DNA from: a virus
DNA: 43,855 bases
IMG/VR virus record: IMGVR_UViG_3300044699_000046
Span: 1-43,855 of that record
Strand: one strand, 5' to 3'
In this document: positions 1-38,959 of the stretch, piece by piece
How positions within the stretch are numbered: position 1 is the stretch's first letter
Layout: each line of letters begins with the position of its first letter
The notes under the pieces: generated by a model
What the model was told of the DNA's origin: nothing
Database searches by the model: none
Seen by the model: the letters and a program-made list of their open reading frames with translations, nothing else
Program-made: the position numbers and the translations under genes

Positions 1-3000
1 CGGCGATTATTGGGGCGCAGGCTCCGACGAACCTGGCACGGCGTGAAGAATTTGGGGGATGACTAAGGCTGCTTTGCATCGTTCGGGCTGGACTCGAGTA
101 CGGCAGCCTCGCGGCGAGTGCTCTGGAGACACCCGGAGGCTTCCATTCATGCGCACTGTCTACGGGCTCGCTATGCCTACTCCGCGGCTGGCGCCTGGAT
201 CAATGCCAACTTAGAATCCATGGAAGCGTTGAGGGGCTGGACTCTGTCTGCTCGAGCAAAGCTCCTACGGTCCAAGAGCTCGTCAATGTCTAGACTATAT
301 GGCTCTACGCTCACAGCGTCCGATTTGCCCGAGACCTGAAGTGGGGCGGGCTGATATGCTGCGACTTCCGAGCAGACTCGATGTTGTAATCCATTCCGCG
401 GAGTGAGCCTGGCGCCGCGCGTCAAGACCGGCTGGCATGTCATCAGCCACTCTCGGCTGAGAACATGCGCGCCGCAACGCGCTGGAGTTCCGGGAGCCTG
501 CTGCGTCGATTGAGCGCCGGTCGGCGCTCCCATTCGGTAGGTCAGCGGTGAGACCGCAATCCCTGACTGACCAAGACCACCGAGTTATCGCCTTTCTGGC
601 GACGTCCAGGACTCGCTAATAGCCAACTCCTTCTTCAGGCCTTCCAGGGTTGCTGTGCGTACGTCGTTATGCCTGTCCTGCGCAGCTTGGAAAGCGCAAT
701 TCCAGCCGTTTCGTGCTCGGGCTCATCTAAGCGGGGGTGCCAGATTACCTCGGTTATAGGTGCGTTCTGATGGAGGCTCTTATTATATGTCCGTACAAAA
801 ATCGTTTGACAAGTCTCGCTGAGCGATCTATATTCTGTCCGTACGTAAATACAAAAGAGCACGGAGACAGAGTCCCCCCCTGCAATGCAAATCCAAATCA
901 ATCGAGGATTAAAAAAAGCGAGTACGGCACCTCACCCACAATGGAGAAGCTCGCTTGCACCAAGACCACTGGCTTATTCACGCAGTCAACATGACGGAAG
1001 CGTCCAAGGTCTGCGCTTACAACGGCCTCGCACAATGGTTTGGAGGGTCGCGCTGTGCAAATACTACGACTCGCACAAGCCTCTAAGCAGTCTTGAGTAC
1101 ATTCCTGCCAGCGCCGAATGAAGGCATATCAAACGGGGGCCGCCGCTTTCGAAGGACGGTTTCGCTAACACTCCTGCAAACGGAACCAGCACTAATGAGG
1201 CCGATACACCACGTGCATGTCAGAGAGTGAGCGCGGCGATGGCTGAAAGAGTTACCACTACACCATGATGATCTAATAATCGATCCGGGGTTCACCAGCA
1301 CGAGAAACACGAAACTGAAGATCAAGGATGCAGGAAACGGATGTACGTGTTTAACTGCTTCGAGCTGCGGTCTTCAATGTGGCCGATATATCACATTTCT
1401 ATGTGAGAACGAGGTGTGCTGTATCTATCCCGTCTAGTCGACAGCGATTGCTGAATGATTCGAAGACGTAGTCATCAGAATTCGGCACTACGTCCAGAAC
1501 TTCTATACGCATTGTGAAGCAGCATAGTGAACAGCCCCAATAGCTACGAACCCCGAGAAGGATACACCTGTCCCTCAAGATGGGCACGCTGAAAGGTGAA
1601 CTTTGACGAGGCCCGCGAGGGCCTAGACGGCTGCACCCAAAGGTTATTTTGCGATCTCGAACGTGTGCTATGTCGGCGGCTGATGCAACGTGACGACACC
1701 GGAGCAGAAAGAGCTGCTCTGCGCAGATCACGACGAGTGCGGCGCTGACGAGATTTCGCTCGACTGGGGACGGACTTATAACTCGCTCCAGATAGTAGGC
1801 TGAACAACTGAAGTACGCTAATTCATGGAAATACGCTAAGGAAAAGACACCATGTGAAGACTGATAACCAGCTAAATATGGCGAAGAAGCGCCGTCTAAT
1901 GGTACAGAAGGCAAATCCAGCCGCCTTATCCGCGGCTGGAATGGAGTACGCGCGCTCCCATTTACCCAGAAGATGAAAATGACATCTGCACTATGGGGGG
2001 GGGAGGAAGGGCTGGGTCCCCAAAGAAGCGTATGCGTGATAACTCTGCGCTACGGGCTCATTGCTGGCGTACCAGCAGTTTGAGTGCGTTCTAACAGAGA
2101 TAAGAAAGGGAGAACCTAGTGCGAAATGACACTATGCTCTATCTATTGGACGAGAGATGCGAGAGGGCCTCCAGCACAGCTAAGCTTCGTAGAAACGGGA
2201 CGAACGCTCAGCCCCTATCGCGCGGGTAGGCCGTGCTTAGCATATCCGTACCTATAGAACGTCAGATCACAACCATCGCGGCGCGATGCTATTCTGAAGC
2301 GATTGCAAGAGCAAGTGCATACCCCCGAACGAAAATAAGGCGCTAGAAACGCGACCTTGCAACGCCACGCATTGCTCGATCCAGATTAACTATCGGACGT
2401 GCGCATGCATACCTACAATCCAACGGAGTGTGACGCGCGACAGATGCATGAGATTGCGCCGCGATGTCGAGTCCGATAGTAGACAGTCGACCGAACTGAT
2501 GGCCATGAGTTCTACACGGCATTGGACAAGGGGGGGGAGGTCGGGGGGGGGGGGGGGGAGGGGGGGGGGGGGGGGAGGGTGGGGGGGGGGAGGTGCGGGG
2601 GAGGGGGGGGGGGGGGGGTGGGTTGAGGGCAGGGGTGAAGCGAGTGGGAACGAAGCCGCGACCCGACTACTGCAAAAGATCCGCCTCCTTCCCAAAGAAT
2701 CTCGCGCCCGAACTTAGCCAGCAAGGCGATTACGAGCCCAAGTACCGCAAGCGGATAAAGTAGATAATGTATATAGCCGAACGCCGCCGTAATCCGGTTA
2801 CACACGTGGCACGCCTAGGTAGTGCGCGCCAGCTGTTGGCACCGAGGCATTTACGACATAGCTACAGCGACATTACGATGGTATAAGACATACAGCGTGA
2901 GGCCCAATACCAGATTCTTACAACTCAAATGAGGAAGTAAGTCAGCAAGGCCATAACAACTGCTACACTGATGAAGGACGGGCTAAGCCAGCCGAGAAAA

Positions 3001-6000
3001 GCTCGCTGAAAGTGACTGATGTCCCTTGAATAACTGTCCGAAAACGATAGGCCTCGGCTCGAAAAACACCGAGTGCGGCTCGCCCAAATGACATGACTAC
3101 GTACATCAGGAACAGGCCTGCCAGTAAAAAGAACCAAGATCATACAAGACTGAGTACACGAGCGGCCAGAAGGGTCTTCGTCGCGGCTCGAATCTGGACA
3201 GGCCTCCGATAGTCTGTGATTCGTAGCATCGGAAACACGCTATAGGATATTCCGTAGCAGCAGCAGTAGTGTTCCAGCCAGCGAGACTCTGTGAATCGAC
3301 TACATCACTGTAGGCTGGGATACAAGATGAGTGGAAAGAGAAAACCCATTTCTCATCCAGGGATATCCTAACAGAAGGGTGGATAGCCAGTGGCGCGATG
3401 GTTCACGATTCAGTTTGATAGCAAAGTCACGTGCTACATGAATATGGATGTACAAGCTCATCCAGCAAAGGCCTCAGAAATGACGCAGTCGAATTTGTAC
3501 GAATAGAGAAGCGTATCGTGATGCGAGCACAAGCTAGCAAGATATTGGAGCTAACAGCCTAGTTCCTCTGAGCGTTGGAACCGCGCCGCGAGCCAGCATA
3601 AGACGCCAGTCGTCTGGAGGCTTCGAGTCGGAGTGACGCCTGTCGCGCAAAAGTTGCAAGCTCGGCCTAGCTGAAACAGATGATCACAACTGGCGATGAC
3701 AAAAGCCCCACGCCAGATATTAACGTCAGAAGAAATAGGGAGACATTCTGTACGTCACTGATGTCGCGCAGCGCCGAGGATTCGAATATGTCGGGCGCCG
3801 CCCATATTCAAGAAGGCTTGGTCGCCTCTCTGCGAAGTAGATCACGTGTCAAGCATCGCGATGGCTATGAATCGCGGCCGAACAATAACAGCTCGCAGGC
3901 ACTCTAATCCCTACCAGAAAACCCGGGCGCAAAGCTACCGACCCTGAACTAGAGTCAAATGCTGGAGCAAGCGCAGCAACAGATTCTGCCTTACGCGTAA
4001 AGGTCGTCATGACTCGTCGCAGAACTGCTAACACCCATCCTCTAATTGAAGCCCCTGCCAAGTCCCCGTCGCAAGCGACAAATCAACCTAGTGTCTGTGT
4101 TTAATTCACTGCGCTTAGCACGTCCTCGGTCAAAATATCTGCCTGACATTAGCGTAATCCATAAGTCTAAGCATAGAAACGACTCGCGCGCATTTTGCAT
4201 CAGACTCCCAGCAAACAACGCGAAGCTAACAACGAAGACATGAGGAAACCATCTAAGCTCGATCATCCGTAGGGCGATGCTATGCACGAGCTGCTGGCCC
4301 ATCCGTTACCGCCGTCCTGAATGAACAGTCAAAAATGACGAGCAGTGGCTAAGAGCCTAATTACCGATACCAAAACGCCGGGAGACTGCGGACGTTCAAC
4401 TAGCTAAAGAAATAGCCATTCCCTGGTGTTCAGTTATCGGCGGATGCGACAGCGGAACAAACGAACGGCTCAGTGGCGAATAATCGCTCTTACACCATCG
4501 TCTTTTTAATAGAACTAGATCGGGATCGAAGCAGAGGCACGTCATGCTGAATGGACTCGCTTGCATGTTTTCGGCGAACGTGTAGGCAAAAACTAGCCAT
4601 TACTACCCCTAGCGGCGAGCAAGCGATCGCATACTACAGACTGGACGTAAAACCTCGGACAGTGAACGTGAAAACACGGTCTGAGCGCAATGTTGATTCA
4701 GCAACTGCTGTAGAGTTGGGTGTCGACAGGTTGCGGACTGGGTTCTCGCAATACTGGGCAATAACCTACACCGTACCAGGGATGCGTCGACTTAGATATA
4801 CGCAGCTGTAAGAAGCAGCATTTAGATATATAAATCATGCGATAAGCATGAAGAACAGATGTAAATAAAGGAAGGCACGTCGTGATCTTATTCTAACGAA
4901 TACTGAACTTCCGGCAAGGCGGCCTCAGAAGCGCTACGTGGCGCGGTACATTCACTAGAAGACTAACGGACGCAAATGTTACGGTGCATGGACAGCTGAC
5001 TTACGAGACTGGAGACATAACGGAAATTGATCCCAGCGCAGGCGAGCCGTGCATAATTTATATCAGACCAAGAACAGGAGACAGAGAGGACGCTGATCGC
5101 TAGCGCATGGGGCGGGACGGCGATTGTACTTGCTTCAAGAGCTCGTACGCCTGCCCCGACCAACAAGTCGTGGTGAACAGAGGCAACGACTTCCAAAGAC
5201 GGACACACAGTCATGTGAAGATTCTCGATAAGGTGTAAGCTAAGAACGGACGATGACGTTAGACCTGAAAAATACGCACCGAAAAGATTCACGAAGCAAG
5301 GCTCCACGTCATCCAGCAAAACAATTGGTTGCACGCAAACTGCTGGCCGCTCGTTTCCTAACCGGGACGATCACTAATAAACGTGCCTCGATCATGGATC
5401 GACCGCGATCGACGTCATAAGGCAAATCCAGTCGACACTCGTCTGAGCGCATTTTATCGTCGACGCTCAGCGTACCAGTGCTTCCAAGTTGAGAACTATC
5501 GTAATTAGAGATAAGGAGTGATCAGCGGCTGAACGGAACGAGGCCGTAGAGACAGGTGCGACGCGATCGTGAGGCATAGGAGGTTTATGTATGGTTGAGA
5601 GTAGTCGAAGAATCGAGCATATGGTACAAGCGCGTCAAAGAGCAGTCCGTAGCGCTCTGGATCATCCATAACGGAGTCTAAATATAGAGCCAGCGCGTGA
5701 GAATCATATTAAGGGCCTAACGATACTAATGCGTGCAGAGGCATAGAGAAAACCATTGTCGGCAGGATAAGATTAAGACGCGAGCCCGGCAAGCGGCCTA
5801 GTGCAGGGGAGTCGCTCTCGTCATTGATGAGTCGAGAGTAGCCTACCTCGACCAAATAACTGCTCGGGGTCCCTCAAGCCATTAGCAGCGAAACAGTTTT
5901 AGACTCATCTAAGGAAGCAGCTAAAGCGTGTATGTCTACTGATCGTCGGAGGCCCGCATTGTGTACAGCTGCAATAGCGGCGCTTGTCTGATGTAGCTGC

Positions 6001-7140
6001 TAGCGCGCCATCATAAGTTCACGGTAACATGGAATGGGTGGAGCAGTTTGCGCCTAGATTCCAAGTATTGAGCTGCTGTATTCTTCAATCCAGCATATGG
6101 GAATGGAGCAGTACGACGACTCCTTCGATAGGTCAAAGCGTTGGATTCATCGCTTGACACTACTCCAAAACTTGCGGCCAGAACCTTAGACCAGCGAGAT
6201 TATGAGGAGCTGCAGCTACAGCGCGTCTGAGGAATGAAGAACGGCTCTACAGGTGCCAGCGACTCGCTTGTATTGGGATTCGACGCGGGAGCCGATAGGG
6301 GCTTCACAGAAGGCATTAGACAACAAGCCTCAACGTGATAGAGAACGAAGCAATAGCTTAAGTTTAAACGGGCGCAAAATGAATGAAGCGCAATTGACAG
6401 ACATATCAACACCTGGAGCGAGCAAAGTGGACACTGCACAATGACCGAGAAAGAAGATCTGGCGTACGATTTCTCCAAAGCGCGCTTAATGAGTAATATC
6501 AGTGAGATGCACAGTCAAAGCTATTATCCGATGCAAATTGAATCGCGCATATCAAACGCGTCTTTGGGCGCGCTACTAAAGCTAATCGCGAGCATGCGGG
6601 GCCGACCTACTAACAAGAGCGCTCTACCAACCAACGATCTGATGGTAAAAATGGAAACTCGCTATCTAATCCGTCACGAAGGATTTGTCTCGCAGATATA
6701 AGGCTAGAGAGGTACTGAGGGCTTGAATGGGAGTCAGGTCGTTCGCGCGGCGGCTTCGTGGCGAAACTATCTCTTCACGTGCAAAGAGGTCCGTGCCTGT
6801 GGCGTGCAAGGGGTATACAGAGCCAATATGACAGGCTAGCCATCGCCGGGAGAGTCGAGCGTAGCCGATCGCTGCTCCGTGCATGATCCGAGCGACGGCG
6901 AGCGCCGCCCTTAAGAAAGCACGGAAGAGGATATGCGATGGCTAGCCTTGCATCGGAGGAGAACGGGAAGACGGGTCAAATAGTAGCAAAGAGCACAGGC
7001 CGATCTGCGAAATGCACCTTTCGATTCGCGAGCGTGGCTCCAAACTCTGCTGGTGCAGAGGCCCGCAACCAAGAGCATCCCATCACGAAGTATGAGGGCT
7101 GCTGGAATGCACCGTAGATGAGCGCTGGAAGCTCGCAGTG
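1..7140. other. Noise-like left flank without supportable genes
   Basis: I see no gene here that I can support. All open frames are short (the longest is about 170 codons, at 1399-1914 on the minus strand), start and stop without ribosome-binding sites, and translate to proteins with no recognisable motif or sensible composition. Neighbouring frames do not rejoin into a coherent protein, unlike the split genes from 9 kb onward. Base composition looks closer to even than the GC-rich phage core. Together with the G run at 2530 this suggests low-quality or uncorrected sequence. A genuinely non-coding accessory region cannot be excluded from sequence alone. Confidence 0.6.
2530..2630. repeat. Low-complexity G run
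   Basis: About 100 bases that are almost only G, interrupted by single A, T or C bases. It creates artificial open frames coding poly-Gly on the plus strand and poly-Pro on the minus strand. Such a run is unlike anything else in the window and is typical of a basecalling or assembly artefact. I do not read the Pro-rich or Gly-rich frames as genes. Confidence 0.8.
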
Positions 7141-7157
7141 AACGGCCACAAGACACC

Positions 7158-7279
7158 AATGGTGTGCAGCCTGTCGACGTGCCGATCGAGCCATTCGACT
7201 GCTACGTCACGTTCAACGGCTGGCCGCCTTTATCTTCAATCCGTATGGCGCGGCGGTGCGGCTGGTGAAGCGCAAATGA
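7158..7279 (+). pseudogene. C-terminal fragment of a small phage-type hypothetical (frame broken)
   Basis: Two adjacent plus-strand frames join across one missing base near 7228. The first reads VPIEPFDCYVTFNGWP and the second FIFNPYGAAVRLVKRK followed by TGA at 7277. The Y-x-x-FNGWP core resembles small conserved hypotheticals in phage and prophage early regions; I recognise the style, not a named family. It is the leftmost stretch that reads as real protein, so usable phage sequence seems to begin about here. Start and upstream part cannot be placed. Confidence 0.35.
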
Positions 7280-7351
7280 AACGACGTTTCATCGCCCAGC
7301 GGTGAATAGCGGCAACCGAGCGCCTTCACACCTCAGGGTAAGCCCCGAGAA

Positions 7352-7611
7352 ATGAGCCAACTCGCCGCAATCGACCGCCGAACCGCTGGGGCAGCAAGCC
7401 CGATCAGGAATGTGTGCGTGAGCACGACCTTACCATGGAGTGCAAGCACGGGATGTCGCTGCGTGGCTCCGCACGCTTGCAAGAGCGCACCGATCGGTTC
7501 GCAGAACAGTTCGCCGCATCAACCCCGAGGAGGGAAAGTGAAAGAAGACTCTACAAATCGAGAAAGCCGAAGCAAGAATGCAAATTGAGTTTCGAGCGCA
7601 CAGGGCCTTAA
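7352..7611 (+). pseudogene. Frame-broken plus-strand coding fragments
   Basis: An ATG at 7352 opens a frame beginning MSQLAAIDRRTAG. After about 60 bases the better-looking protein continues in another frame (LTMECKHGMSLRGSARLQER, then TDRFAEQFAA). The pieces are charged, helix-prone and plausible as one small phage protein interrupted by indels. No domain is recognised. The purine-rich stretch near 7530 (GAGGAGGGAAAG) could be the ribosome-binding site of a following small gene. Confidence 0.25.
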
Positions 7612-7640
7612 GCCGAAAAGTATCTCGCTGAGGCTCAACC

Positions 7641-7861
7641 GTGGCCTCGCTGTACGAGCTTTACCGGAAGCCTTTCCGACAGCTTCACGGAGTTTCGGCG
7701 AGACGCTTTTCCACGATGCCGAGATGTTTTTTGTTAAAATTCCAGCAAAGGCAGGCCGGCGATTTCACGCAGGCAACGCCGGACGCTGTGAACGCGATGA
7801 AAAGGTTGCTCTGGCCGCAATCGAGCTTGCCAAGGCGGTCGCTGCTAAAGGCGAAAAGTGA
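7641..7861 (+). pseudogene. Frame-broken small hypothetical ending in an Ala/Lys helix
   Basis: Three overlapping plus-strand frames give consecutive pieces of what reads as one protein: FGETLFHDAEMFFVKIPAKAG, DFTQATPDAV, and DEKVALAAIELAKAVAAKGEK ending at TGA 7859-7861. The last piece is a strongly amphipathic helix. Its stop overlaps the GTG start of the next small gene (GTGA at 7858-7861), an arrangement seen repeatedly in the intact operon and an argument that both are real. At least two indels are needed. Function unknown. Confidence 0.3.
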
Positions 7862-7986
7862 ACGGTGAAGCCGAAATCTTGATCGTAATCGTCCTTATGG
7901 CGTGCTGGCACTTCTGCTTTGGTGGCTGTGCGCGAGATACTAAAACACGCACGCGCCATTCGACGAATGAGTCACACTCTGGATAA
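7858..7986 (+). CDS. Small putative membrane protein (42 aa)
   Basis: A 42-codon frame with GTG start coupled by a GTGA overlap to the preceding gene. Residues 6-22 form one hydrophobic segment (ILIVIVLMACWHFCFGG), followed by a short, Thr/Arg-rich polar tail. This fits a single-span phage membrane peptide. It lies in error-rich sequence, so the tail after residue 27 may be out of frame; the hydrophobic part is the reliable portion. No family recognised. Confidence 0.35.
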   Translation: MNGEAEILIVIVLMACWHFCFGGCARDTKTRTRHSTNESHSG

Positions 7987-9157
7987 AGCAACGAGGAGTG
8001 AGCAATGAAGTGACATTCAGCCGGAAATGGTTTCGAGAAGGTGCGTATCCCCCTCTGGCATGCGCGTGCCGTAACAATGTGAATGCGCCAGAGGACACGA
8101 CATCGGAGTAGCTGATGCGAGGAATACGGTACTCTGCGAAGCCGTGACGAGGAGGGCATTACTCTGGCTGCAATGGCACGAGGAGGTAGACAACGCTAGT
8201 TTTCGTGTTCGATACTCGCTGACCTCGTGTGCTTCTGATCCTATGGAACGCATACATTACCGCCCCTGTTCCGTCCACCTACGGAGATTGTATCCGATTA
8301 CATGAGCCGCGCCTTGACTCCTGACCACGGCGGCAAAGAACCCCGCGTGAATGGTGCAGGATGCCCATTGGGCGGCCCGGACCGAACTATCGGACGATGT
8401 GGTGGGGCCGGCGCTTCATGGACTACACGAGCAAGTTACAACCCGGTCCCCTCTTCCAAACCGTGGCTGCTAAGATGAGGCGGCGCCGGCGGGCTCTCGT
8501 CTCGTGGCGCTCAAGTTAGAACCGTAGGGGGCGTCCGTTCCCATGAGCGATTAGGAGCGAAGCCAAGGCCTCCCGAGGACATGGCGGTAATTGCGGCTGT
8601 GGAAGCGCAAACCCGCGCGGTTTGTCGCGTGAGCTTTTTCGGCTGTACGATACTTTCGAAGAATCGCACTTGCAAGAAGCCGAAAAAAAAAGATGGACGA
8701 TGAGCGCAGATCTGCAAGGACGCATCAGCACTACGTCGCGCTTTCATAGTGCCGGCGGCAGCAAGGACATTTCCGGGAGCCCGCTACGTTCGAGCGAGCC
8801 TGCAAGCGTATGGCCTATGAACCACTCGTGAGCAATCATGGATTGAGACAATCACTACGTTCATCATGGGTTTCGTTCCTTCGGGGTTTTGTTTGGCCGT
8901 CTGTACATGACCAGATGGGAAGAATGAGAATGAATTTATACGGGAGCGGACCTTTCGATCCATCCGAGCGTGCTGCCCGAGACGTGGCCGCACTCCACAA
9001 TTTGAACTGGCTAAAGATCGCCTTTTCAACTGAAGCTTGCCGGTGTCCGATGGATTCGCTTCCGGAGGCGATGGCGAGGCTCGAAAAGGCGGGCTCGAGC
9101 AGCGCGAGACGGGTACTCGATTCGCCGCGCTCCCATCTCAAAGGAAGGCCCGAGCGC
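7987..9157 (+). other. Error-rich stretch with plus-strand coding traces upstream of the excisionase-like gene
   Basis: No complete gene can be drawn. Traces include a GTG-initiated MSNEVTFSRKWFREGAY near 8000, an ATG frame at 8302 beginning MSRALTPDHGG, a frame at 8622-8750 reading ELFRLYDTFEESHLQEAEKK, and ALHNLNWLKIAFSTEA near 8990. These are coherent for 15-30 residues and then lose frame, as expected for real genes with uncorrected indels. They probably represent small early or lysogeny genes on the plus strand. I assign no functions. Confidence 0.3.
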
Positions 9158-9388: not shown

Positions 9389-9538
9389 GTCCAGATAAAT
9401 CAGCATCTTAGGACGTTGTTTTGGTGCCCTTCCTCGGCACACCGACCGTCCTTTGACGTGCTCATACAGAGTGAAAACGCTGCGAAAGAATGCGCCTGGA
9501 TGCGCTGTTCTGCGTAACAATTACCCAAAATTTACGCA
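9361..9538 (+). promoter_or_regulatory. Repeat-rich integrase leader, possible attP arm/operator region
   Basis: Between the excisionase-like stop and the integrase start lie several ordered repeats. CCCAAAATCTACGCA (9361-9375) recurs as CCCAAAATTTACGCA (9524-9538), one mismatch in 15. CTACGCA (9369-9375) pairs with TGCGTAG (9382-9388), and TGCGTAA (9511-9517) pairs with TTACGCA (9532-9538). TGCG also occurs at 9481, 9491, 9501 and 9511, exactly ten bases apart. Repeated, helically phased sites next to int are typical of arm-type integrase/excisionase binding or of a repressor operator. No attachment core could be identified without the host sequence. Confidence 0.45.
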
Positions 9539-10451
9539 TGGCAACCTTCAGCAAGTATGGCGATGGAATGGAGGGCGCAGGTTGCCCGCCGCGGGGTCCG
9601 TAAGTCTCGCACGTTTCCGTCCAAGGGTGCCGCAACGGCTTGGGCGGGGCAGGGTCGAAGACGAGATTATGGCCGGCGTGCGCGGCGAGATCCCAAACCT
9701 GACGGTAGCTGAGCTGTTCAAGCGCTACGAGAAGGAAGTCTCCGAGGGCAAGAAGGGGAAGCGCTGGGAAGTCGTGCGCCTGACGGCCCTGGGACGCGAC
9801 AGGCTGGCCGCTGTGAGGCTGCGGCAGTTGGACACCCCGCACGTCTCAGACTGGCAGCAGCGCCGCCTAGAAGCCGTTTCCGGGGCTTCCGTGAGGCGGG
9901 AGCGGAACCTGCTGAACAACGTCTTTGAGATCGCCCGCAAGGAATGGCACTGGCTTAGGAAAAACCCGTTCCTCGGGATACGGCGCCCGAAGGATGGGAA
10001 GTCTCGCAAGCGCACTGCCTCGCCGGCCGAGATCGCCAAGCTGACCTTGAGGGCGAGCGACAAGATGCGCCGGGCCATCACGATCGCCCTAGAAACCGGG
10101 ATGAGGTGCTCGGAGATAGCGAGCGACCCGCGGATAAAGGGACGCGTTGCCAGCCTCGTGGACAGCAAGAACGGGGAGGAGCGGGATGTGCCGCTCTCAG
10201 AGAAGGCGATTGAAGCGTGGCGCGAGCCGATCGCCCTTACCGCGGGCTCGATCTCAGCCCTATTCGCTCGGCTGTGCGATGACCTGGACATCGAGGGTCT
10301 GACCTTCCATGACCTGCGGCATACAGCCGCTACGAGGCTCGCGAAGAAGCTGACCCTGCTCGAGCTGTGCAAGATGTTTGGCTGGAAAGATCCTAGGCAC
10401 GCCCTGATCTATTACAACGAGGGCGCGGACCAGATAGCGAAGAAGCTATAA
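9538..10451 (+). CDS. int: Tyrosine recombinase integrase (two frameshifts near the N-terminus)
   Basis: Phage-type tyrosine integrase, about 304 residues, catalysing site-specific recombination between attP and the host attB. The true start is ATG 9538 (MATFSKYGDG); an extra base at about 9568 shifts to WRAQVARRGVRKSRTFPSKG, and an extra G near 9650 shifts to the long frame VEDEIMAGVRGE. Then come the SAM-like core-binding domain (about residues 55-150) and the catalytic domain: first Arg in ETGMRCSE, Lys in DSKNGEERDVPL, HxxR as FHDLRHTAATRL, and the nucleophile Tyr in HALIYYN. The segment after the first Arg looks a few residues short (a small deletion is possible). The only large plus-strand gene of the core; it converges on the late operon. 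Confidence 0.9.
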
Positions 10452-10730: not shown

Positions 10731-10970
10731 TCAAGTCAGCTTCGGAGTGTTCGGATCTGCGAGCGTGTCGTTGTACTGCTTGAGGGCGTCTGCCTCGATC
10801 TCGTCGTCGGAATCGAGCAGGCCCTTCAGGTCGTCCGTGGTGAGCGTCTTTCCTTCGGCGTGCCGCCGCACAATTAGGTCCGAAACCCCTTTCGTGAGAA
10901 TGACCATGTTCATTCCAGCCTCCGCCGCAGCGGCAAGAAATTGCACCACCTGAAGTAGTTGGCCCATCAC
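10731..10970 (-). CDS. Small hypothetical protein (79 aa)
   Basis: Intact 79-codon frame whose start overlaps the stop of the upstream lipoprotein gene by four bases (ATGA). The first 30 residues are hydrophobic and Ala-rich (LLQVVQFLAAAAEAGMNMV), the rest acidic (TTDDLKGLLDSDDEIEADAL). It has no recognised domain. Its place at the end of the lysis-like cluster and the tight coupling suggest co-expression with the lipoprotein. A membrane-associated helix at the N-terminus is possible but not strong enough to call a transmembrane span. Confidence 0.65.
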   Translation of the reverse strand: MMGQLLQVVQFLAAAAEAGMNMVILTKGVSDLIVRRHAEGKTLTTDDLKGLLDSDDEIEADALKQYNDTLADPNTPKLT

Positions 10971-11353
10971 ATACCGCCTTTCTGTGCTTTCTCTAAGCTG
11001 CGTTCGACTTCGATCAGCATGGTTTCCGCGAGCCGCAGGCAGGCCTCCGGAGTGCTCGGCTCACCCAGGCAAGAACCACCTTTTACCGCCATGACGCTCG
11101 TGTCCTTCACCGCGGCCCTGGCCTTGGACAGTTGTTCGTGCCAGCCCTTCGCCACGGCAGGGTGCAAAGGCCGGCCTTCCTCTTCGCAAGCACCAGACAC
11201 CGCATACTTCTTGCACGTCTTGTCCGCGATCGTCTTAATGACCCCCGTAATCGTGGCGTCGGTATAGGCGATCTTCTCCTGGAACGTCATGGGCTTCTCG
11301 AGGCCCACCGTGGCGCATCCAGCTAGTAAAACTACGAATAAGAGTCTCTTCAT
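10967..11353 (-). CDS. Lipoprotein (128 aa), lysis-region
   Basis: Begins MKRLLFVVLLAGCATVG: a basic n-region, hydrophobic core and a textbook lipobox LAGC, so Cys-13 should be lipidated and the protein anchored in a membrane facing the periplasm. The mature part is mostly helical and contains four further cysteines (KTCKKYAVSGAC, GGSC, EAC), which could form two disulfides. It overlaps both neighbours by four bases. In phages a small lipoprotein beside holin-like genes is often an o-spanin, but this mature domain is longer than usual Rz1 proteins and not proline-rich, so spanin function is only a possibility. Confidence 0.75.
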   Translation of the reverse strand: MKRLLFVVLLAGCATVGLEKPMTFQEKIAYTDATITGVIKTIADKTCKKYAVSGACEEEGRPLHPAVAKGWHEQLSKARAAVKDTSVMAVKGGSCLGEPSTPEACLRLAETMLIEVERSLEKAQKGGM

Positions 11354-11760
11354 TTAGTCCTCCGGTTGGTTCCCGTTCCCTCGGCTGAAACGAGCATTTC
11401 AAATTTGTTTACCTCTGCCGTGAGGTGCATGAATTCTTGAAACCCTCGAGCATAATCGGCAACTGCGATTTTCCCATCCAGCACCGCGAACGATTCCGCG
11501 ATGATCACGCAGGCTTTCGACTGGTTGCCGAAATTGCCTTTGTGGAAAAGTATCCGGTCATGGCCATCAACTTCAATTTCAAAGGTCGGGTATCCTCCCT
11601 TATGGTAGAAGTCTCTGTGGCACCTGTAGATACCGTCCACGAGAACCGGCGGCGAAATCTCTACCGACACGGCGAACGGCTCATCATTCCACTTGAGCAC
11701 CGAATACACGCCATGCGGGCGGATCGCGACCGTCTTTAACTCAAGTACCGTCTTTGACAT
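11350..11760 (-). CDS. DUF5675-like protein (136 aa)
   Basis: I chose ATG 11760 (MSKTVLELKTV); the frame continues upstream but reads as low-complexity Arg/Ser. Motifs match my memory of the DUF5675 family found near lysis and tail genes of many phages: a beta-rich N-terminus, VDGIYRCHRDF, then the conserved RILFHKGNFGNQSKACVII, where HkGN and a following Cys are the family's hallmark, and SFAVLDGKIAVADYARGFQEF. The function of the family is not established. Its coupling (four-base overlap) to the lipoprotein gene and its place among small membrane proteins suggest a part in lysis or host-surface interaction. Of all genes here it is the one most worth testing as an atypical lysis enzyme. Confidence 0.65.
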   Translation of the reverse strand: MSKTVLELKTVAIRPHGVYSVLKWNDEPFAVSVEISPPVLVDGIYRCHRDFYHKGGYPTFEIEVDGHDRILFHKGNFGNQSKACVIIAESFAVLDGKIAVADYARGFQEFMHLTAEVNKFEMLVSAEGTGTNRRTK

Positions 11761-11761
11761 C

Positions 11762-12046
11762 TCATGCTTTCGGCGCGATCGGCTCTGCAACAGGATCTGC
11801 GGCCACCCGGCCAGCGATAACCTGCGCCTCGTTACTCGCAGGCTTCTTCGCAAGGTGCGCCCATACGGTTGCGATGGCCGCCATTGCCAGCCCGCCTAGA
11901 GCCTCAACCAGCGGAATCGCAAGCTCGCTCATGGCCGTGGCCGCGTCCGCATCCTTGGTGGTGATGTAGCCAAGCGCAACGAGCAAAGCCCCGCCGTATT
12001 TCATCGCGTCTCGGATGTACATCAAGGTTTCCGGTGAGAGTTTCAT
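11762..12046 (-). CDS. Holin-like small membrane protein (94 aa)
   Basis: Starts at ATG 12046 (MKLSPETLMYIRDAMKYG). The same frame is open upstream to 12502, but that part belongs to a separate gene joined by an indel. Two hydrophobic segments: about 18-32 (GGALLVALGYITTK) and about 45-66 (IPLVEALGGLAMAAIATVWA), followed by a polar, Ala/Pro-rich cytoplasmic-type tail. Size and topology fit a small phage holin or antiholin. It sits within a run of five small membrane proteins, so which of them is the true holin cannot be decided from sequence. Confidence 0.6.
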   Translation of the reverse strand: MKLSPETLMYIRDAMKYGGALLVALGYITTKDADAATAMSELAIPLVEALGGLAMAAIATVWAHLAKKPASNEAQVIAGRVAADPVAEPIAPKA

Positions 12047-12054
12047 TTGATCCC

Positions 12055-12502
12055 TTAGTTTGTTTTCAGATATAGCCCAACGACTGCGATCAGCAGCATC
12101 ACCGCGCCGAATATCCATCCATACATATCGCGCATTGCCCTTGCTCCCGCCCTGCTGCGAAGCGACGTAAGAGACAACTGGGGCCATCGTGGCATCGATC
12201 TTTTCAACTGCGCCCTTGAGATCTGATTGCGTGACATACGTCCCGCGTTCCCGCTCAATCTGCGAGCGGAGTTCGTTTGCCTTCTCGTCCTTATAAGTCT
12301 GTATTTCCCGAGCAAGACCAAGGGCGGCTTTGTCGGCCTCCTCTTTGATCTTCAGCGCCTTCTCACGCTCTTGCGATACTTCCGTATTACGGCGATCGCG
12401 CTCTGCGTCAAACCGAATATCCGCATCGCGCAGAGCTTTCCAATGCTCGCTGAGCGTGTCTATCGTCCACCCGCTCTCCTGCTTGGCGGTCTCGCCGCTC
12501 AC
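12055..12502 (-). CDS. Coiled-coil protein with C-terminal membrane anchor (frameshifted)
   Basis: About 149 residues once an indel near 12130-12155 is bridged. The N-terminal 115 residues (from MSGETAKQESGW) are a long charged helix with heptad-like spacing (ERDRRNTEVSQEREKALKIK and onward), then AMRDMYGWIFGAVMLLIAVV gives one transmembrane span ending GLYLKTN at stop 12055. Without the correction the frame fuses into the following holin-like gene, giving a misleading 246-residue protein. A long coiled coil plus one span recalls i-spanin-like or holin-accessory proteins, but the anchor is C-terminal rather than N-terminal as in Rz, so I leave the function open. Confidence 0.6.
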
Positions 12503-12503
12503 T

Positions 12504-12698
12504 TCATTTCCAAACGTGGAAGCTTGCGAACTGCGGAAAGAACTGGGAGAGCAGAATCATCAGCAGGATCACCCCAACTATTACTAGCGCAATGGTCCGC
12601 GCTGGCTCGCCTGTAAAGAACTTGGTGATAATCCAGTAGGCGAATAGACCGACCACGAACAGCACGAGAAGCAGGACCACCAGCGCGCCTAACGTCAT
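12504..12698 (-). CDS. Two-span small membrane protein (64 aa)
   Basis: Nearly entirely hydrophobic. Span one is about residues 2-24 (TLGALVVLLLVLFVVGLFAY), a short polar loop KFFTGEPAR follows, and span two is about 36-54 (IALVIVGVILLMILLSQFF). This two-helix hairpin of 64 residues is the shape of a class II holin or pinholin. It lies directly downstream of another membrane protein gene and is followed after one base by the coiled-coil anchor gene. No sequence family recognised; the holin role is inference from topology and neighbourhood. Confidence 0.6.
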   Translation of the reverse strand: MTLGALVVLLLVLFVVGLFAYWIITKFFTGEPARTIALVIVGVILLMILLSQFFPQFASFHVWK

Positions 12699-12708
12699 TT
12701 GAATCCTT

Positions 12709-12981
12709 TCATTTGGGCAAATGCCCTCCGAGTCCTAGCCAAGCAGCAACCAAAGTAAGAATGCCCCCGACGATAAGTACAACTTTCTTAAACGTTCCTT
12801 CGCCGACCATCGCCATGAACTTTGCGATGGATTTGTCTGATCCGCTCTGGGAGGAAGATTCGAGAAGTCTGGGAAGCTCATCTCTGAGTCGGTCGATCGC
12901 CTTCTCAACTGCGGCGTCGATGTATAGCTGGACTTCGGCAGGCACCTGGTCATGCTTTCGCCTCTGCTCTGGCGGGCTCAT
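12709..12981 (-). CDS. Holin-like protein with one C-terminal span (90 aa)
   Basis: I start it at ATG 12981 (MSPPEQRRKHDQVPAEVQLY), which overlaps the stop of the preceding 26-residue peptide as ATGA. An amphipathic acidic helix (DAAVEKAIDRLRDELPRLLE) and a Ser-rich linker precede one strong transmembrane segment, KVVLIVGGILTLVAAWLGLG, ending GHLPK. This domain order resembles phage holin-superfamily proteins with a soluble N-terminal helix. It is one of several candidate holins in the cluster. Confidence 0.6.
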   Translation of the reverse strand: MSPPEQRRKHDQVPAEVQLYIDAAVEKAIDRLRDELPRLLESSSQSGSDKSIAKFMAMVGEGTFKKVVLIVGGILTLVAAWLGLGGHLPK

Positions 12982-13058
12982 CGATGCCTCCGAAGCACCA
13001 AGGCCAAGACAAAGAGATAACAAATGAGGTCACGGATTAGCGAAAGTGCGGTCTTCAT
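12978..13058 (-). CDS. Tiny membrane peptide (26 aa)
   Basis: MKTALSLIRDLICYLFVLAL followed by VLRRHR: one hydrophobic segment with positive flanks. The start is supported by GGAGAG five bases upstream of ATG 13058 and by an ATGA overlap with the next gene. Very small single-span peptides are common in phage lysis cassettes, but one this short is easily spurious, so confidence is moderate. Confidence 0.45.
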   Translation of the reverse strand: MKTALSLIRDLICYLFVLALVLRRHR

Positions 13059-13284
13059 CGGCTCTCCGAATGTGAATATGCACAACATTCTTGAGCCGAG
13101 TGGTGGTAGCGTTCCCTGCGTACGGCAGCGTACACGGGGGCCTGCCGCTTGTAAGGGGCAACGGTGGCTCAATCACCGGGGCCCCCTCCTTTGCTGCTGG
13201 TATAGTTCCGATAATGGGAACCGTCTCCTTTAGAGCCGCCCTCTTGTCCGGCGCGCTCAGCCTACTGTTCCAGTTGATAGTCAT
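13030..13284 (-). CDS. Doubtful 84-aa hypothetical in the fibre/lysis gap
   Basis: The gap between the tail fibre stop (13337) and the small peptide start (13058) holds a minus-strand frame of 84 codons starting MTINWNSRLSAPDK. It is Pro/Thr-rich with no span or motif, lacks a good ribosome-binding site, and overlaps the downstream peptide. On the opposite strand an ATG at 13214 opens a frame with one clear transmembrane segment (LLSGALSLLFQLIVIWLYAN), which would be a convergent small membrane protein running into the fibre gene's 3' end. I cannot decide which, if either, is real. Confidence 0.25.
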   Translation of the reverse strand: MTINWNSRLSAPDKRAALKETVPIIGTIPAAKEGAPVIEPPLPLTSGRPPCTLPYAGNATTTRLKNVVHIHIRRADEDRTFANP

Positions 13285-13336: not shown

Positions 13337-14472
13337 TCACAGCTTGATCATCACATTGAGGAACACGGTCGGCTGCAGGTTCGCGCCTGTGCCGCTCGCG
13401 CCGGAGCTGTCAATTGAAATTCCGGTAGTCGCGCTCCCAGTGTTTGGCAGCGGCTGAGTGTTTAGATGAACGAACGCCCCAGACCCTCCGCCAATCAGGT
13501 TGACAGTGTTGTCCATGCCTCCCGTGTGGACGTGCCCGGGGTCGGTGATGGTGTGCGTGTGGGCTACGTTGATCGCATCTTCGGCGCCAGCGGCCTTGGC
13601 TAGAGCTCTCGAGGTAAGCCCAGAGCCAGCTCCGGCGCCCGCCAGCGCCCGCCCTAGCGCCTTCGGGAGCGCGATCGTCTTATTGGCCGCATAGTCGGCC
13701 GCTGCGTTAGCGCCACGCCCGCCGCTCACAGCGCAATCTGCATCAGCGGTGTTGTTGTAGAGCAGCGTGAACAGCGGCAGCGTGTCCGCGTTGGCGCGGG
13801 TGGTGCCGCCGCTCGCCGCGTTGCCGATGGTGCCGTCGTTCATCATGACCCAGCCAGCGTCGGCTGTCGTCTTGATCGTCAGCTTCACGTCCCCGGTCGT
13901 AAACCCCGTAGGCGATATAGCGGCTCGGAACCAGCCAAGGCACCGTACAACGCTGCCAGCATAGCCTGCGAATATCCCGTAGTCTCCGGCCGCAGCTACG
14001 ATGTCTGACGCCCCGGGCAGGATCAGCGACGCCCCATTTGTCAGCGTCGGCGTCCCCGTAAAGCGAACGACGCGCCAGTGGCCCTGCGACAGCGTTATCG
14101 CCGTAACAGGCCCCGTGCTTCCTGTCACGTCCACCACGTTCCCTGTCGCGGTCTCGAGGTTGATCGTCGCCGCACAAACGATGTCCGCACCCTGTGTCGT
14201 GTCTACGCGGCCGTCTTTTAGAAGCACGCTGTCGAGCGTGACGCCGGTATCTGCCGTTTTCTCAGTAACCGTGTCGGTCGAGATCCCGGCTGCGAACGGA
14301 AACACGCTGCGTCGCTACCTGCTGACCGTCCTTATAGATCGCGCTGGCGAGGATCGTATAGATGTCCGCGATGCTGGTATTCGCCTTCGCGGACTGAATC
14401 AGCGTGCTAGGGACTGCGGGGTAGAGACTACCGACCGGCTGAGTGGACGCCGCCGCTTCCGTTTAGGGGCAC
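13337..14472 (-). CDS. Tail fibre / collar-type receptor-binding protein (two frameshifts)
   Basis: About 378 residues after joining. The start is GTG 14472 (MPLNGSGG), preceded by AAAGGAGG at ideal spacing and overlapping the upstream stop by one base. Indels near 14430 and 14305 separate the N-terminal pieces (SLYPAVPSTLIQSAKANTSI, AIYKDGQQVATQ) from the long C-terminal frame of 322 codons. The N-terminus with DGQQV is typical of podovirus fibre/tail-collar proteins that attach to the tail. The C-terminus has a collar-like domain with HTHTITDPGHVHTGG and the closing PTVFLNVMIKL, characteristic of fibre tips. HxH pairs may bind metal. It probably recognises the host surface. It is last of the virion genes. 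Confidence 0.8.
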
Positions 14473-17666: not shown

Positions 17667-18174
17667 TCTCAGCCTCCACTGCGGGTTTCGCGTGGGTGCT
17701 GTCGGCACCGCCTTTGACTTGCTTACTCCACTGGGATGCTATCACCTTATAGCCAAGGCGCTCAAGCAGCGCGCCCTTGCCCTTTTTGTCGGTCCAGCCT
17801 ATCTCGACCGCCCCGCGCTTCAGGCACTCTGATTCGATGAACTTTAGGAACCGGATGGCATTCCAGCCTAGCCGGTAGTCTGGCAGCAGGAAAAACGTGT
17901 CCTCTGAGGCAATCGTCTTTTGCGTGTGCATCGACGGCATGGCCCACATACCGCCGTAGCCGACCATCGGCGTCCGCACCACGCAGGTATCGAACGGCCG
18001 CGCTGTGCACATGAAATACCAGCCCGCGGCATCGCTTGAGAAGTACCGTTTCCAATCGGGGCTATACTTCTGCCCATGCCGGTATTCCTCGGTTTCCAGC
18101 CAATGCTGCCTCGCCAAGGCATCCACTTCCGGCCAGCAGGACGCCAAGGGCTCGACGGCGAAGCGCAGGCTCAT
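17653..18174 (-). CDS. GNAT-family acetyltransferase-like protein
   Basis: Intact 173-residue frame from ATG 18174 (MSLRFAVEPLASCWPEVDAL). The C-terminal half has a GNAT-like core: the acetyl-CoA-loop region FFLLPDYRLGWNAIRFLKFI and helix, then the beta-strand/helix IGWTDKKGKGALLERLGYKV typical of motif B. Such genes occur among tail genes of several podoviruses; the substrate is unknown and could be a virion or host protein. Its start is divergent from the plus-strand lipoprotein gene (12 bases apart), and its end overlaps the next tail gene by 14 bases. The N-terminal third is conserved-looking but unassigned. Confidence 0.7.
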   Translation of the reverse strand: MSLRFAVEPLASCWPEVDALARQHWLETEEYRHGQKYSPDWKRYFSSDAAGWYFMCTARPFDTCVVRTPMVGYGGMWAMPSMHTQKTIASEDTFFLLPDYRLGWNAIRFLKFIESECLKRGAVEIGWTDKKGKGALLERLGYKVIASQWSKQVKGGADSTHAKPAVEAENVHP

Positions 18175-18185
18175 CGGAGGTTCCC

Positions 18186-18422
18186 ATGAAATATCTTCTT
18201 CTGGTCCTGCTTTTGGCGGGTTGCGTAGCTCAGCCAACGCAGGAGGAGCGCGCGCAGTACGCCATAGATAGGTATGGGCCTTACTGCGAACGGCTTGGCT
18301 TCAAAGATACGGCGCTGCGCGACTGCATTCAAAAGGAGGCTAGCGTCGCCTCGCAGAACAGAGCCGCCAGAAGGTGCGGTAACGGTCCGGTTAAACCCCT
18401 TTTCGGCCCTTGCTCTGAATAG
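18186..18422 (+). CDS. Plus-strand small lipoprotein nested in the late operon (78 aa)
   Basis: Starts MKYLLLVLLLAGCVAQPTQE, a clear lipoprotein signal with lipobox LAGC (Cys-13). CGGAGG five bases before ATG 18186 is a strong ribosome-binding site. The mature part is short and polar (DRYGPYCERLGFKDTALRDC) with four further cysteines, consistent with two disulfides in the periplasm. It is transcribed against all neighbours: divergent from the GNAT gene, and overlapping the 3' end of the nozzle-like gene by about 30 bases if that gene ends at 18391. This layout is typical of an independently expressed accessory gene (moron), for example a lysogen surface or superinfection-exclusion lipoprotein; function is inferred only from class and position. 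Confidence 0.75.
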   Translation: MKYLLLVLLLAGCVAQPTQEERAQYAIDRYGPYCERLGFKDTALRDCIQKEASVASQNRAARRCGNGPVKPLFGPCSE

Positions 18423-20002
18423 CCGCAGGCTCATATCCCACCCGCCGCCCTCAAACATGATGTCGCTCGCCAGCATGTGAACCTCGAGCCTGTTGGTCGA
18501 TACTTTCAGCTTGCCGGCGAACCACGTCCCGATGTTCTCCTGCGGGCTCGACCACTGCCGCACGATGTCAAGACTCGCTGCCCAATAGGCGTCGTCCCAA
18601 GTGCTTGAGTCCCATACCGCTCCGGACGTAACCGTATAGGTCGCCTCGCCAAGGATTGGCGTATCCCTGAAATCTACGTCGATGCCGGTCAGGTAGTTAA
18701 TCGACCCGTCCACTTGCAGAATGGGGCGATACAGCGTCGCGCGCTTTTTGCTTGCCGCTGGCCGTATTTTTGGAATGCCTCTTTTATACTCGGCGACGAT
18801 ATTTAGGCCATCGTCTGCCATCGTCGTCCACGCCTTTTGAACAGCAGTCCCGAGGCCGTAGTAAAGCTCGTTGTTGAATAGCGCGAAGCATGTCGCATTC
18901 CAGCCAGAAAACTCGCACCACGGCTTTTTAGGCGAGCTGGTGTTGAGAACGTACTGGATAGATTCGGTGCCTGTCGCCGTTGGGATATTGAAGATCAGCG
19001 CAGACTGCGCCGGATAGAAGATAACTTCCCAGCCGACATTCCCTTTATAAAGATTCGACGCCTTGATGAAAGCATTTTCTATTTTGTTCGTGACGGCCAG
19101 TTTTGGCTCGATGGCCGCAGACTGCAGCACCGAAGACATTGGGAATGCGCCGTTTTGCGTGATGATGATGAGGTCACCGCCGTACTTGAACGCGCAGCGC
19201 CGGCCGATTGGCTTGCCAAGATAGAACGTCCCGCGGCGCACCCCAATCTGCGGCCGAGGCTGGATTCGTCCCCTTGTAGACGATTACCTGCCCCTCACTG
19301 GTTATGAAGGCAATGTAAATCGTCAATGCCGTCGCCGCTGTCCACGGACCATGTGCCGATTGCTAGGAGGTAGCCGCCGCGATTAGCAAAAGATGACAGG
19401 TCAAATGCTGTCAGCGCCCCGCCAGCAGCGGCAGCGGTGAGATACCAGAACTTGAGCTTGTCTTTTTCAATGAAGAAAAGCCGCCCGTTGTATTCGGCTA
19501 CTCCGATGATGCTTGTCGTCGTGAGGCCCGTCAGGGCTGGCGTGCTTGCACCATCAACGGCGGTCCAAGCAGCACCGGAGTAGTAATTCGGCTTATCGGT
19601 GCCGTTGACCATGATCAACCAGTTGGTCGTGCCGTCCCCGAAGTTGAGCCATTGCCAATATCCGTTTGTGGAGGTTGCTACAGATGCGCCGACGGCCCCC
19701 GCTACCGAAACGTCATAGATCCCGCTGTCGGACGCCGTAAACATCTTGTTTGTCCCGCTGGCGCCGTTGTAGACCGCTAGCGTCTTGACTGTTCCGGTTA
19801 CTCCGCTAGCGTAGTCCGCCTGCCCGCCGCGGATCACAACTTCCGTTGTGAGCGGGTAGAAGTTCAGCATTTTCACCGCCTCGCCTGGCTTCATGTTGGC
19901 GAGTGCGTCGCGCGCGTTCCAGCCTCCGGTCGGGGCCTGCTGCGATACGATCTGCGAGATTTGCTGCGAAGGCGATCCGCCCTGCTTGAGCGGCTTACGC
20001 AT
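18391..20002 (-). CDS. Tail nozzle-like beta-rich protein (two frameshifts)
   Basis: About 537 residues. It begins MRKPLKQGGSPSQQISQIVS at ATG 20002; an indel near 19290 joins it to the second long frame (RGTFYLGKPIGRRCAFKYGG; GLNIVAEYKRGIPKIRPAAS). The text is beta-rich with repeated short blades (TKTLAVYNG-like, WLIMVNGTDKPNYYSGAAW, RLFFIEKDKLKFWYL), as in podovirus nozzle or stabilisation proteins. Near 18440 one frame runs on to 18171, but the other gives the natural-looking end GYEPAAIQSKGRKGV with TAA at 18391, which I prefer because it leaves room for the plus-strand lipoprotein gene. It follows the gatekeeper-like gene with a TGATG overlap. Confidence 0.7.
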
Positions 20003-20716
20003 CAAGGCACGTTCCAGTTACCGCTCGGACGATGATTCCTGGCCTCGGACCATCGCAGCCAGAGTCGCCCATGCGCAGGTCGGCTTGCCGCCGTCGCGCC
20101 CCGCCGCGTCCTTCAGCATCGTCTCGTAGGTTCTAAATTCTTCATCGTAGGCCAGCCCCTTTTCCCGCTTCCAGATCCAGCGCAAGCCCTGCAAGAGCAC
20201 TACGTCCGGCAGGAGGATCGTGTCGTCGTCGGCGCCGAAGAATTGCCGATAGGTGGTGCCGTTCAGAATCCAGTTGTAGCTCACGTACTCGAAGGCCCAG
20301 GTATGTCCGGCAGTCGGCGTCGGATTGACGAGCAGCTTCCCGCCACGGATGCGGAATTGATAGCGCGGACCCGTCGTAACGATCGCCTTCATCGCCTGCC
20401 AGCCGCGCGCGAACATGGGGCCGAGGACCGGGAGCCTGTCCGTGCGGTCCCATATGGTTTCGTTCTTGATGTACTTGAACCCGTTCGCGGCAATGGTGGT
20501 GATAGCGCCCTGGTCCTCCGCGGCGATCGTCGTATGCGTTGCCTCGAAGGTAGTCCCCTCCCAAGCTACCCGGCTTGCCATGTCGATGCCGATCTCCTCC
20601 AGCAGCGCCTTGATCTGCACTACCTGCGGATCGGACGATCCGATCACCGTTGCCGGCGAAGCGAGGTTCGTCCGCTCGCAGAAGTGAACTACCGTCTGCA
20701 GGAGGGTGAGCGCCAC
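20002..20716 (-). CDS. Tail gatekeeper/adaptor-like protein (frameshift near the end)
   Basis: About 237 residues from MALTLLQTVVHFCERTNLAS. The body is intact (DPQVVQIKALLEEIGIDMAS; LLVNPTPTAGHTWAFEYVSY; RWIWKREKGLAYDEEFRTYE), and an indel near 20090 moves the C-terminus to a frame ending PRPGIIVRAGNWNVP with TGA overlapping the next ATG. The pattern, an N-terminal helical part that counts residues 'IK.LL.EIG', a beta middle and a C-terminal helix with W..EKGL.Y, is that of T7 gp11/P22 gp4-like head-to-tail adaptor proteins in podoviruses. Placement directly before the nozzle-like gene agrees. Confidence 0.7.
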
Positions 20717-38640: not shown

Positions 38641-38959
38641 GGCCATGATTGAGTTACGGTTATATGAGCTGCTCTACCGACCGTTCTTCCGTTTATTCGG
38701 CCTGGTCGACCATCAGCCGATCGCATCGCGCCGGGTCATGGATGCGGCTTTGAAATGCGCCGCATACGACTTAGTACTCGACACGACCAGCTATTCGAAG
38801 CAGAGCAAGTTCGTCGCGACGTTGTGCCGTCTGAGCCGTAGGATTGCCCATCCGCGGTACAGCTTCGGCAAGGCCGTCCTATCTCGACCCGTCCGCCCTG
38901 CCGGCCCGTGATTGCGCGCGAGGATGGATGTCGCTCTGGACCTTCGGCGACATCAGGGG
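38641..38959. other. Stretch without a supportable gene
   Basis: A plus-strand frame from 38645 (MIELRLYELLYRPFFRLFGL) is open for 88 codons but has no ribosome-binding site, and its second half is antisense to equally plausible minus-strand text. I do not call it. The region may hold the 3' neighbour of the RepA-like gene, masked by indels. Confidence 0.3.

Follow-up and report, generated by a model that had tools for sequence, protein, structure and literature searches.

The virus record IMGVR_UViG_3300044699_000046 from IMG/VR raises the question of which enzyme would open the cell wall of its host. Its 43,855 bases, which may be a fragment of a genome, were analysed as one stretch, referred to here as the window. 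Positions 10731 to 13284 hold a block of small genes, every one on the minus strand, which a preliminary description had called a lysis-like cluster with no recognisable endolysin, explaining the gap either by an endolysin in the unreadable flanks or by lysis through an unrecognised protein, for which a DUF5675-like protein was the first candidate. The second is the better option. We read the block as a holin, endolysin and lipoprotein lysis cassette with the DUF5675 protein as candidate endolysin, at a probability of roughly two in three, because its predicted fold, its catalytic motif, its lysin position, its near-exclusion of seven canonical lysin families and the adjacency of small transmembrane (TM) proteins all point to this role, and the same lines of evidence bear out the candidate first proposed.

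A conventional endolysin was sought by a Pfam scan (E ≤ 0.001) of all 311 stop-to-stop fragments of at least 70 amino acids (aa) in the six frames of the window (161 on the minus and 150 on the plus strand). No lysozyme, amidase, transglycosylase or peptidase was found in Pfam among these fragments, confirming the earlier statement within this scope, and a conventional endolysin hidden in the cluster was dismissed for want of a Pfam match. Six families were recovered: MptE-like, Sf6 terminase small subunit, DUF5675, SU10 adaptor, Yip1 and Phage_integrase.

Predicted fold and catalytic motif of the DUF5675 protein

The DUF5675-like protein proved to be a true member of its family, scoring 28.9 bits against PF18925 (E 1.1e-6), above the Pfam gathering cut-off of 26.7, and the genome search agrees. 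Across 42 sequences, namely the window protein and 41 IMG/VR homologues, the residues E33, V63, I69, L70, H72, G74, N75 and C83 are invariant (window numbering, starting after Met). The H-x-G-N...G-C motif is present in all 80 fetched loci, which carry 62 distinct sequences, so that the putative catalytic His and Cys are kept in 42 of 42 sequences and 80 of 80 loci; their alignment with LdtB is weak (E 0.07). The His–Cys distance in the 80 loci is 11 in 39, 12 in 38, 15 in one and 19 in two. A single-sequence IMG/VR scan with the window's own DUF5675 protein confirmed no relative.

Structure prediction, suggested as a check in the preliminary description, was run on the DUF5675 protein, and AlphaFold2 reached a predicted local distance difference test (pLDDT) score of 87.3 on it and of 95.9 on the homologue L016. 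Both models were examined by VIA-align, a second look at the 1000 best chains from Foldseek. For the window model, the first 43 of the best 50 matches are YkuD-fold proteins (Z 9.1–6.2), whereas the remainder are unrelated (Z ≤ 2.5); the top matches are 6xj6 (Z 9.1, root-mean-square deviation (rmsd) 3.8, 110 residues aligned) and YkuD itself, 4a1i (Z 9.0, rmsd 2.7, 95 aligned). The YkuD-fold enzymes matched are Pgp2, YkuD, Csd6, Bd1075, mycobacterial Ldts, DpaA, LdtA and Tlde1a, with Pgp2 and Bd1075 being taken by us as members of this fold. The L016 model behaves similarly, with YkuD-fold proteins in the first 41 of its best 43 matches (Z 10.5–6.6), the others at 2.1, and 6xj7 on top (Z 10.5, rmsd 2.7, 113 aligned). 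The fold assignment is persuasive because of the gap in Z to the next matches, not because of single Z values below 8, and the predicted models give DUF5675 a YkuD-type L,D-peptidase fold.

At the profile level the resemblance is weak. Among the 42 members, Tlde1_dom is weakly matched by 12 (best E 0.0024) and the YkuD profile PF03734 by two at E ≤ 1 (best 0.055), and the L,D-transpeptidase motif of PF03734, HXX14-17(S/T)HGCh with Arg at Cys+2, is absent from DUF5675. In hhalign comparisons with five E. coli YkuD-type proteins, only the stretch with the catalytic motif aligns, pairing the two His and the two Cys residues, while a terminase alignment used as a negative control matched the DUF5675 profile in a single column. 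A search of the profile against PDB sequences returned one chance match (E 0.54).

The residue at Cys+2 bears on the likely activity. It is Arg in none of the 62 distinct DUF5675 homologues and Ile in the window, whereas the E. coli enzymes LdtA, LdtB, LdtC and LdtE all have Arg (4/4) and DpaA has Ala. Passages of PMC12729407 describe DpaA as an amidase without the Arg conserved in the LD-transpeptidase site, and YkuD-family activities as transpeptidase, carboxypeptidase or endopeptidase. The Arg at Cys+2 is probably the one meant there, and DUF5675 would be a hydrolase rather than a transpeptidase. A small YkuD-fold enzyme, Tlde1a, with His121 and Cys131, is described in part of PMC9638812 as killing through tetrapeptide trimming and D-Ala exchange.

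Lysin position and distribution among phages

The window groups with Mx8-like phages, both by a portal search and by a search with the MW202489 homologue of its tail-tubular-B-like gene; its kin are Myxococcus phage Mx8, MW202489 and phages of Sulfitobacter, Rhizobium, Bradyrhizobium and Stenotrophomonas. Terminase, portal, head and tail genes form a structural module on the minus strand between about 38 and 10.7 kb; it ends in a tail-type gene followed by the block and then by an integrase on the opposite strand.

In relatives, the corresponding place is commonly held by a lysin. A GH108 enzyme lies downstream of the tail genes, with a few other genes between, in Sulfitobacter phage pCB2047-A (E 1.3e-28) and Rhizobium phage RHph_I3_18 (E 2.2e-27), and a peptidoglycan-binding protein lies downstream of the tail genes in the Bradyrhizobium relative. 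Terminase-found IMG/VR relatives likewise carry a lysin soon after the tail genes, which were assigned by position and similarity to window genes: a lysozyme in G002, G008, G012 and G020, GH108 in G021 and M15 in G004. Small TM genes flank the lysozyme on both sides in G012 and G020. In G011, DUF5675 itself comes soon after the tail genes, as the last open reading frame (ORF) listed on the contig. In the window, DUF5675 sits at a lysis position with a holin-like (small TM) gene next to it, a placement borne out by the relatives and by other phages.

Canonical lysins and DUF5675 seldom occur together in the records searched. Seven lysin families were searched at E ≤ 0.001 in 50 records, with 23 relatives left out. 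PF05838 is present in W03, W06 and G021; PF00959 in G002, G007, G008, G012, G020 and G042; PF08291 in G004 and W05; PF00182 in G019; PF01464 in G007, W05 and G047; and PF13539 in G016, under its cut-off, while PF01510 is present in none of the 50. These families thus occur in 12 of 18 DUF5675-negative relatives (11 if only matches over the cut-off are counted) versus two of 32 DUF5675-positive records (Fisher p 1.0e-5; 4.6e-5 with 11; 0.0019 with the positive records collapsed to 16 groups at 50% identity). In the two positive records that carry lysins, the open frames are of 871 aa (G042) and 633 aa (G047), and G047 has a second SLT match, below its cut-off, in a 171-aa frame.

The family reaches well beyond this lineage. 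By tblastn with one query it was found in 242 of 50,697 phage records, and 39 of the 60 matches listed are annotated only as "hypothetical protein". A TM-helix gene directly follows DUF5675 in Vibrio phages R21Y, 1.215.A, 1.226.O, PG11 and 230E39-1; in the last, DUF5675, the TM-helix gene and one small hypothetical gene are oriented against the surrounding strand. In a Salinibacter phage DUF5675 follows a gene for a very large protein and has two TM genes downstream of it, and in crAss-like phages it is annotated "transpeptidase" or "L,D-carboxypeptidase/transpeptidase". DUF5675 has a small TM neighbour in 14 of 22 IMG/VR groups (the non-redundant groups with a same-strand neighbour, of 23), as compared with 45 of 254 background ORFs of 80–200 aa from the same loci (p 2.3e-6). 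A Pfam scan at 1e-5 of 73 proteins from two Vibrio phages (1.226.O and 230E39-1) and three microviruses detected no other known lysin; the set is mostly unannotated and omits most coding sequences under about 75 aa and those with another annotated function.

Microviruses with DUF5675 are MW202581, MH992181 and Dulem virus 260. The microvirus genes, from different sources, lie at 7–384 (L003), 3009–3419 (L203) and 3649–4041 (L209), two of them placed between the gene for the major capsid protein and that for a minor capsid or pilot protein, the third following the pilot gene. Among viral structures, Foldseek matched best (E 1.6e-8) a 1,251-aa modelled piece of a Ralstonia phage RP31 protein, BFVD A0A1L7N1E2, named DUF5675 domain-containing; the domain therefore also occurs in very large proteins.

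DUF5675 is perhaps the missing endolysin in many other phages too. We regard it as an even bet that the family is a widespread, unrecognised phage endolysin class with a shortened, Arg-less YkuD active site, serving single-stranded DNA microviruses and crAss-like, Vibrio, Salinibacter, Microcystis and Mx8-like phages, and swapped with lysozymes, GH108 and M15 enzymes in cassettes. A function for DUF5675 would name the lysis enzyme in phages that have none annotated, and would yield a wall-active enzyme of small size (about 135 aa), with Cys as its catalyst and a fold unusual for an endolysin. Phage phiX174 lyses by a small inhibitor of wall synthesis; should the reading hold for microviruses, an enzyme would act in the lysis of some of them, rather than such an inhibitor alone, and microvirus lysis would become directly testable in some cases.

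Several observations weigh against an endolysin role for the window protein. Foldseek alone gave no PDB match (best E 0.17 for the window and 0.32 for L016), its PDB lists being headed by unrelated proteins such as RNase E, and the fold match therefore rests on the second aligner, where a Z below 8 on its own would prove little; the profile–profile significance from hhalign is also poor (E 0.07, probability below 1%). The window protein also diverges from its family, lacking the SCIPxGxY motif and having KAC instead of xGC. DUF5675 occurs in one of 42 relatives, the Pfam profile and our own profile agreeing, and is therefore a rare variant in the Mx8-like lineage. Six of the 18 DUF5675-negative relatives (W01, W02, G001, G003, G005 and G010) lack the seven lysin families, W02 being the relative with the peptidoglycan-binding protein, and the near-exclusion compares one lineage with many, without tree correction, over seven families and in records of unknown completeness. 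In addition, eight of the 22 groups have no small TM neighbour, and some DUF5675 genes lie outside obvious lysis cassettes (crAss cr10_1; L012 and L021).

The main rival, which we consider unlikely, is a helper role, in which DUF5675 is a YkuD-fold wall modifier that, for example, detaches Braun-type lipoproteins or trims tetrapeptides and so aids lysis or excludes other phages, the true endolysin being elsewhere. YkuD enzymes of both kinds are among the structural matches of the DUF5675 models: DpaA, which detaches lipoproteins according to the available text of PMC12729407, and Tlde1a, an LD-carboxypeptidase according to that of PMC9638812. Furthermore, a passage of PMC12729407 says of two purified enzymes that their LD-endopeptidase activity is unseen in other YkuD-type enzymes. 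Evidence against such a helper comes from the near absence of the seven canonical lysin families from DUF5675 records, from the lack of another known lysin in the 73 proteins of the two Vibrio phages and three microviruses, and from the placement of DUF5675 at the lysin position of relatives.

Genes of the block and its surroundings

The features of the block and the two genes that bound it are collected in Table 1, in order of transcription for the block. TM segments were judged by hydropathy with a 19-residue window.

Table 1. Coordinates of the block genes and of the flanking tail-type and integrase genes in the window
Feature	Coordinates	Strand	Basis
Tail-type protein, adjoining the block on its upstream side	13337..14305	-	phrog_8763 tail protein, 1e-11
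ORF of 84 aa, no TM segment, no family	13030..13284	-	Translation, hydropathy, family searches
TM ORF of 26 aa, doubtful as a gene	12978..13058	-	Translation and hydropathy
90-aa protein, one C-terminal TM segment (62–80)	12709..12981	-	Hydropathy; no family above chance
64-aa protein, two TM segments, holin-like	12504..12698	-	Hydropathy; weak profile matches
Coil-like ORF (GTG at 12502; coil by eye), then hydrophobic segment 12055–12135 in another frame	12055..12502	-	Translations, frames
94-aa holin-like protein, TM segment at 43–61	11762..12046	-	Weak Phage_holin_10 match and hydropathy
DUF5675 protein, predicted YkuD-fold cysteine peptidase, candidate endolysin	11350..11760	-	PF18925 and AlphaFold2 model
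128-aa Cys-rich lipoprotein, LLAGC lipobox-like start	10967..11353	-	Translation and hydropathy; no family above chance
79-aa protein, last gene of the block, no TM segment	10731..10970	-	Translation, hydropathy, family searches
Phage integrase, bounds the block	9453..10451	+	PF00589, 7.4e-15; placement suggested by C-terminal sequence

The stop of the 94-aa holin-like gene overlaps the start of DUF5675, and the stop of DUF5675 overlaps the start of the lipoprotein gene; the three genes are therefore probably coupled. The Cys-rich lipoprotein of the preliminary description is present, with its lipobox-like start. Its count of at least five small membrane proteins holds in part: three have clear TM segments, and five is reached only by adding the lipoprotein and the out-of-frame or doubtful segments.

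The coil-like frame stays open, in frame, through the holin-like gene, forming a 246-aa ORF (11762–12502) that contains internal starts for a 26-aa hydrophobic peptide and for the 94-aa protein. Phage_holin_10 (PF23987, Pam3 gp28) matches this containing ORF with E 0.0014 and 19.1 bits, under its 27-bit cut-off, and a tblastn search of phages with the 246-aa ORF at E 0.01 gave no homologue. The change of frame between coil and hydrophobic segment could reflect an error in sequencing or a small overlapping gene that has a start of its own; an error is possible because the gene at 18174–20005 is also split over different frames. With regard to a two-component spanin, the block offers the lipobox-like start on one side and, on the other, the coil-like ORF and a hydrophobic segment that lies in a different frame, with no family match. 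The 128-aa lipoprotein could be the outer-membrane part of such a spanin.

Taking the DUF5675 protein as the endolysin, lysis might proceed as follows. The 94-aa Phage_holin_10-like protein, the 64-aa two-TM protein or both would open the inner membrane, and the enzyme, in which no signal peptide was seen, would then enter the periplasm in a presumably holin-dependent manner. There, the Cys83–His72 pair in the YkuD-type fold would hydrolyse a bond at meso-diaminopimelic acid in the peptide stems, as an endopeptidase, carboxypeptidase or amidase, and loosen the wall. Completion of lysis at the outer membrane may fall to the lipoprotein and the coil/TM protein, in a putative spanin role.

A quite improbable alternative places the endolysin in missing or unreadable flanks and makes DUF5675 an accessory protein. 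Coding density (frames of at least 120 aa) is 0.22 in the left flank (1–8700), 0.91 in the core and 0.70 in 38101–43855, and the left flank contains glycine-rich low-complexity frames and has no Pfam matches. The low density, the lack of family matches and a contig that may be a fragment leave room for such an enzyme, and BUCT555 keeps an M15 enzyme among its head and tail genes. Against this reading, W03, W06, G002, G004, G008, G012, G020 and G021 carry their lysin downstream of the tail genes, the window includes the post-tail stretch up to the integrase, and the 311 window fragments without a lysin include those of the flanks. The left flank may be non-phage DNA; its comparison with plasmids gave no match. 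Rfam and tRNA scans of the window were both empty.

That a small membrane protein alone lyses the host, by a single-gene or spanin-type route needing no endolysin, is barely credible: the block has several small TM proteins of no recognisable family and a coil/holin ORF without homologue, but 12 of 18 relatives carry a wall enzyme and the block itself holds a predicted wall-active one.

The sole PHROG "amidase" label in the window, phrog_5107, matches the tail-tubular-B-like gene at 18174–20005 and was dismissed, there being no Pfam amidase domain and no PDB sequence match at E ≤ 1. In a search with the MW202489 homologue, all 21 matching records, the query among them, cover at least 80% of the gene, whose homologues bear the conflicting names "phage stabilization protein", "tubular tail B protein", "head closure protein" and "amidase". 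The last name, given in several RefSeq phage records, is probably a misannotation for the window gene, Mx8 p52 and the Sulfitobacter homologues, and in the phrog_5107 family it could mask missing endolysins. The window gene is in pieces in different frames, while the MW202489 homologue is a single gene, which suggests insertion or deletion errors in the contig; a single-sequence IMG/VR scan with the 18174–19241 protein confirmed no relative. An MptE-like match (2.7e-11) and glycosyltransferase PHROG matches in three ORFs also lie inside the structural module, likely at 21502–22125.

Comparison with known systems

For DUF5675 (PF18925, phrog_1501) we found no published function, and the papers naming it give none in the text available. 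The window protein shares the invariant H-x-G-N...C of this family and scores above its cut-off, differing in the SCIPxGxY and KAC positions described above. As compared with the YkuD-fold L,D-transpeptidases and carboxypeptidases (YkuD, Pgp2, LdtMt2 and Csd6, the last named an LD-carboxypeptidase in a passage of PMC9638812), DUF5675 has the same predicted fold and the same order and place of His and Cys. It differs from them in its shorter His–Cys spacing (11 or 12 in 77 of 80 loci), the missing Arg at Cys+2, the lack of a significant PF03734 match and of a visible signal peptide, and in that no wall-binding family was found in it.

Tlde1 (PF10908), a type VI antibacterial LD-peptidase, is likewise small and single-domain, with a YkuD fold and a short His–Cys spacing; it is delivered by type VI secretion and paired with an immunity protein, whereas DUF5675 is a phage gene beside holin-like genes. 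DpaA (LdtF) is YkuD-type and, with Ala at Cys+2, also lacks the Arg, and it is a hydrolase according to passages of PMC12729407; it differs in being a chromosomal periplasmic amidase that acts on the lipoprotein link.

The endolysins of the Mx8-like relatives (GH108, PF00959 and M15_3) share the post-tail place, several of them beside small TM proteins, but belong to sequence families unrelated to DUF5675. As for phage lysins of YkuD type, the portion of PMC8310338 available lists YkuD as a phage lytic domain type in PhaLP, with 10 proteins, under PF10908, cd16913 and PF03734 and not PF18925, and the available text of a gut endolysin survey mentions one YkuD-containing protein. A YkuD-type lysin is therefore not a wholly new idea; what appears new within the literature searched is a stand-alone, divergent family in the lysis cassettes of many phages.

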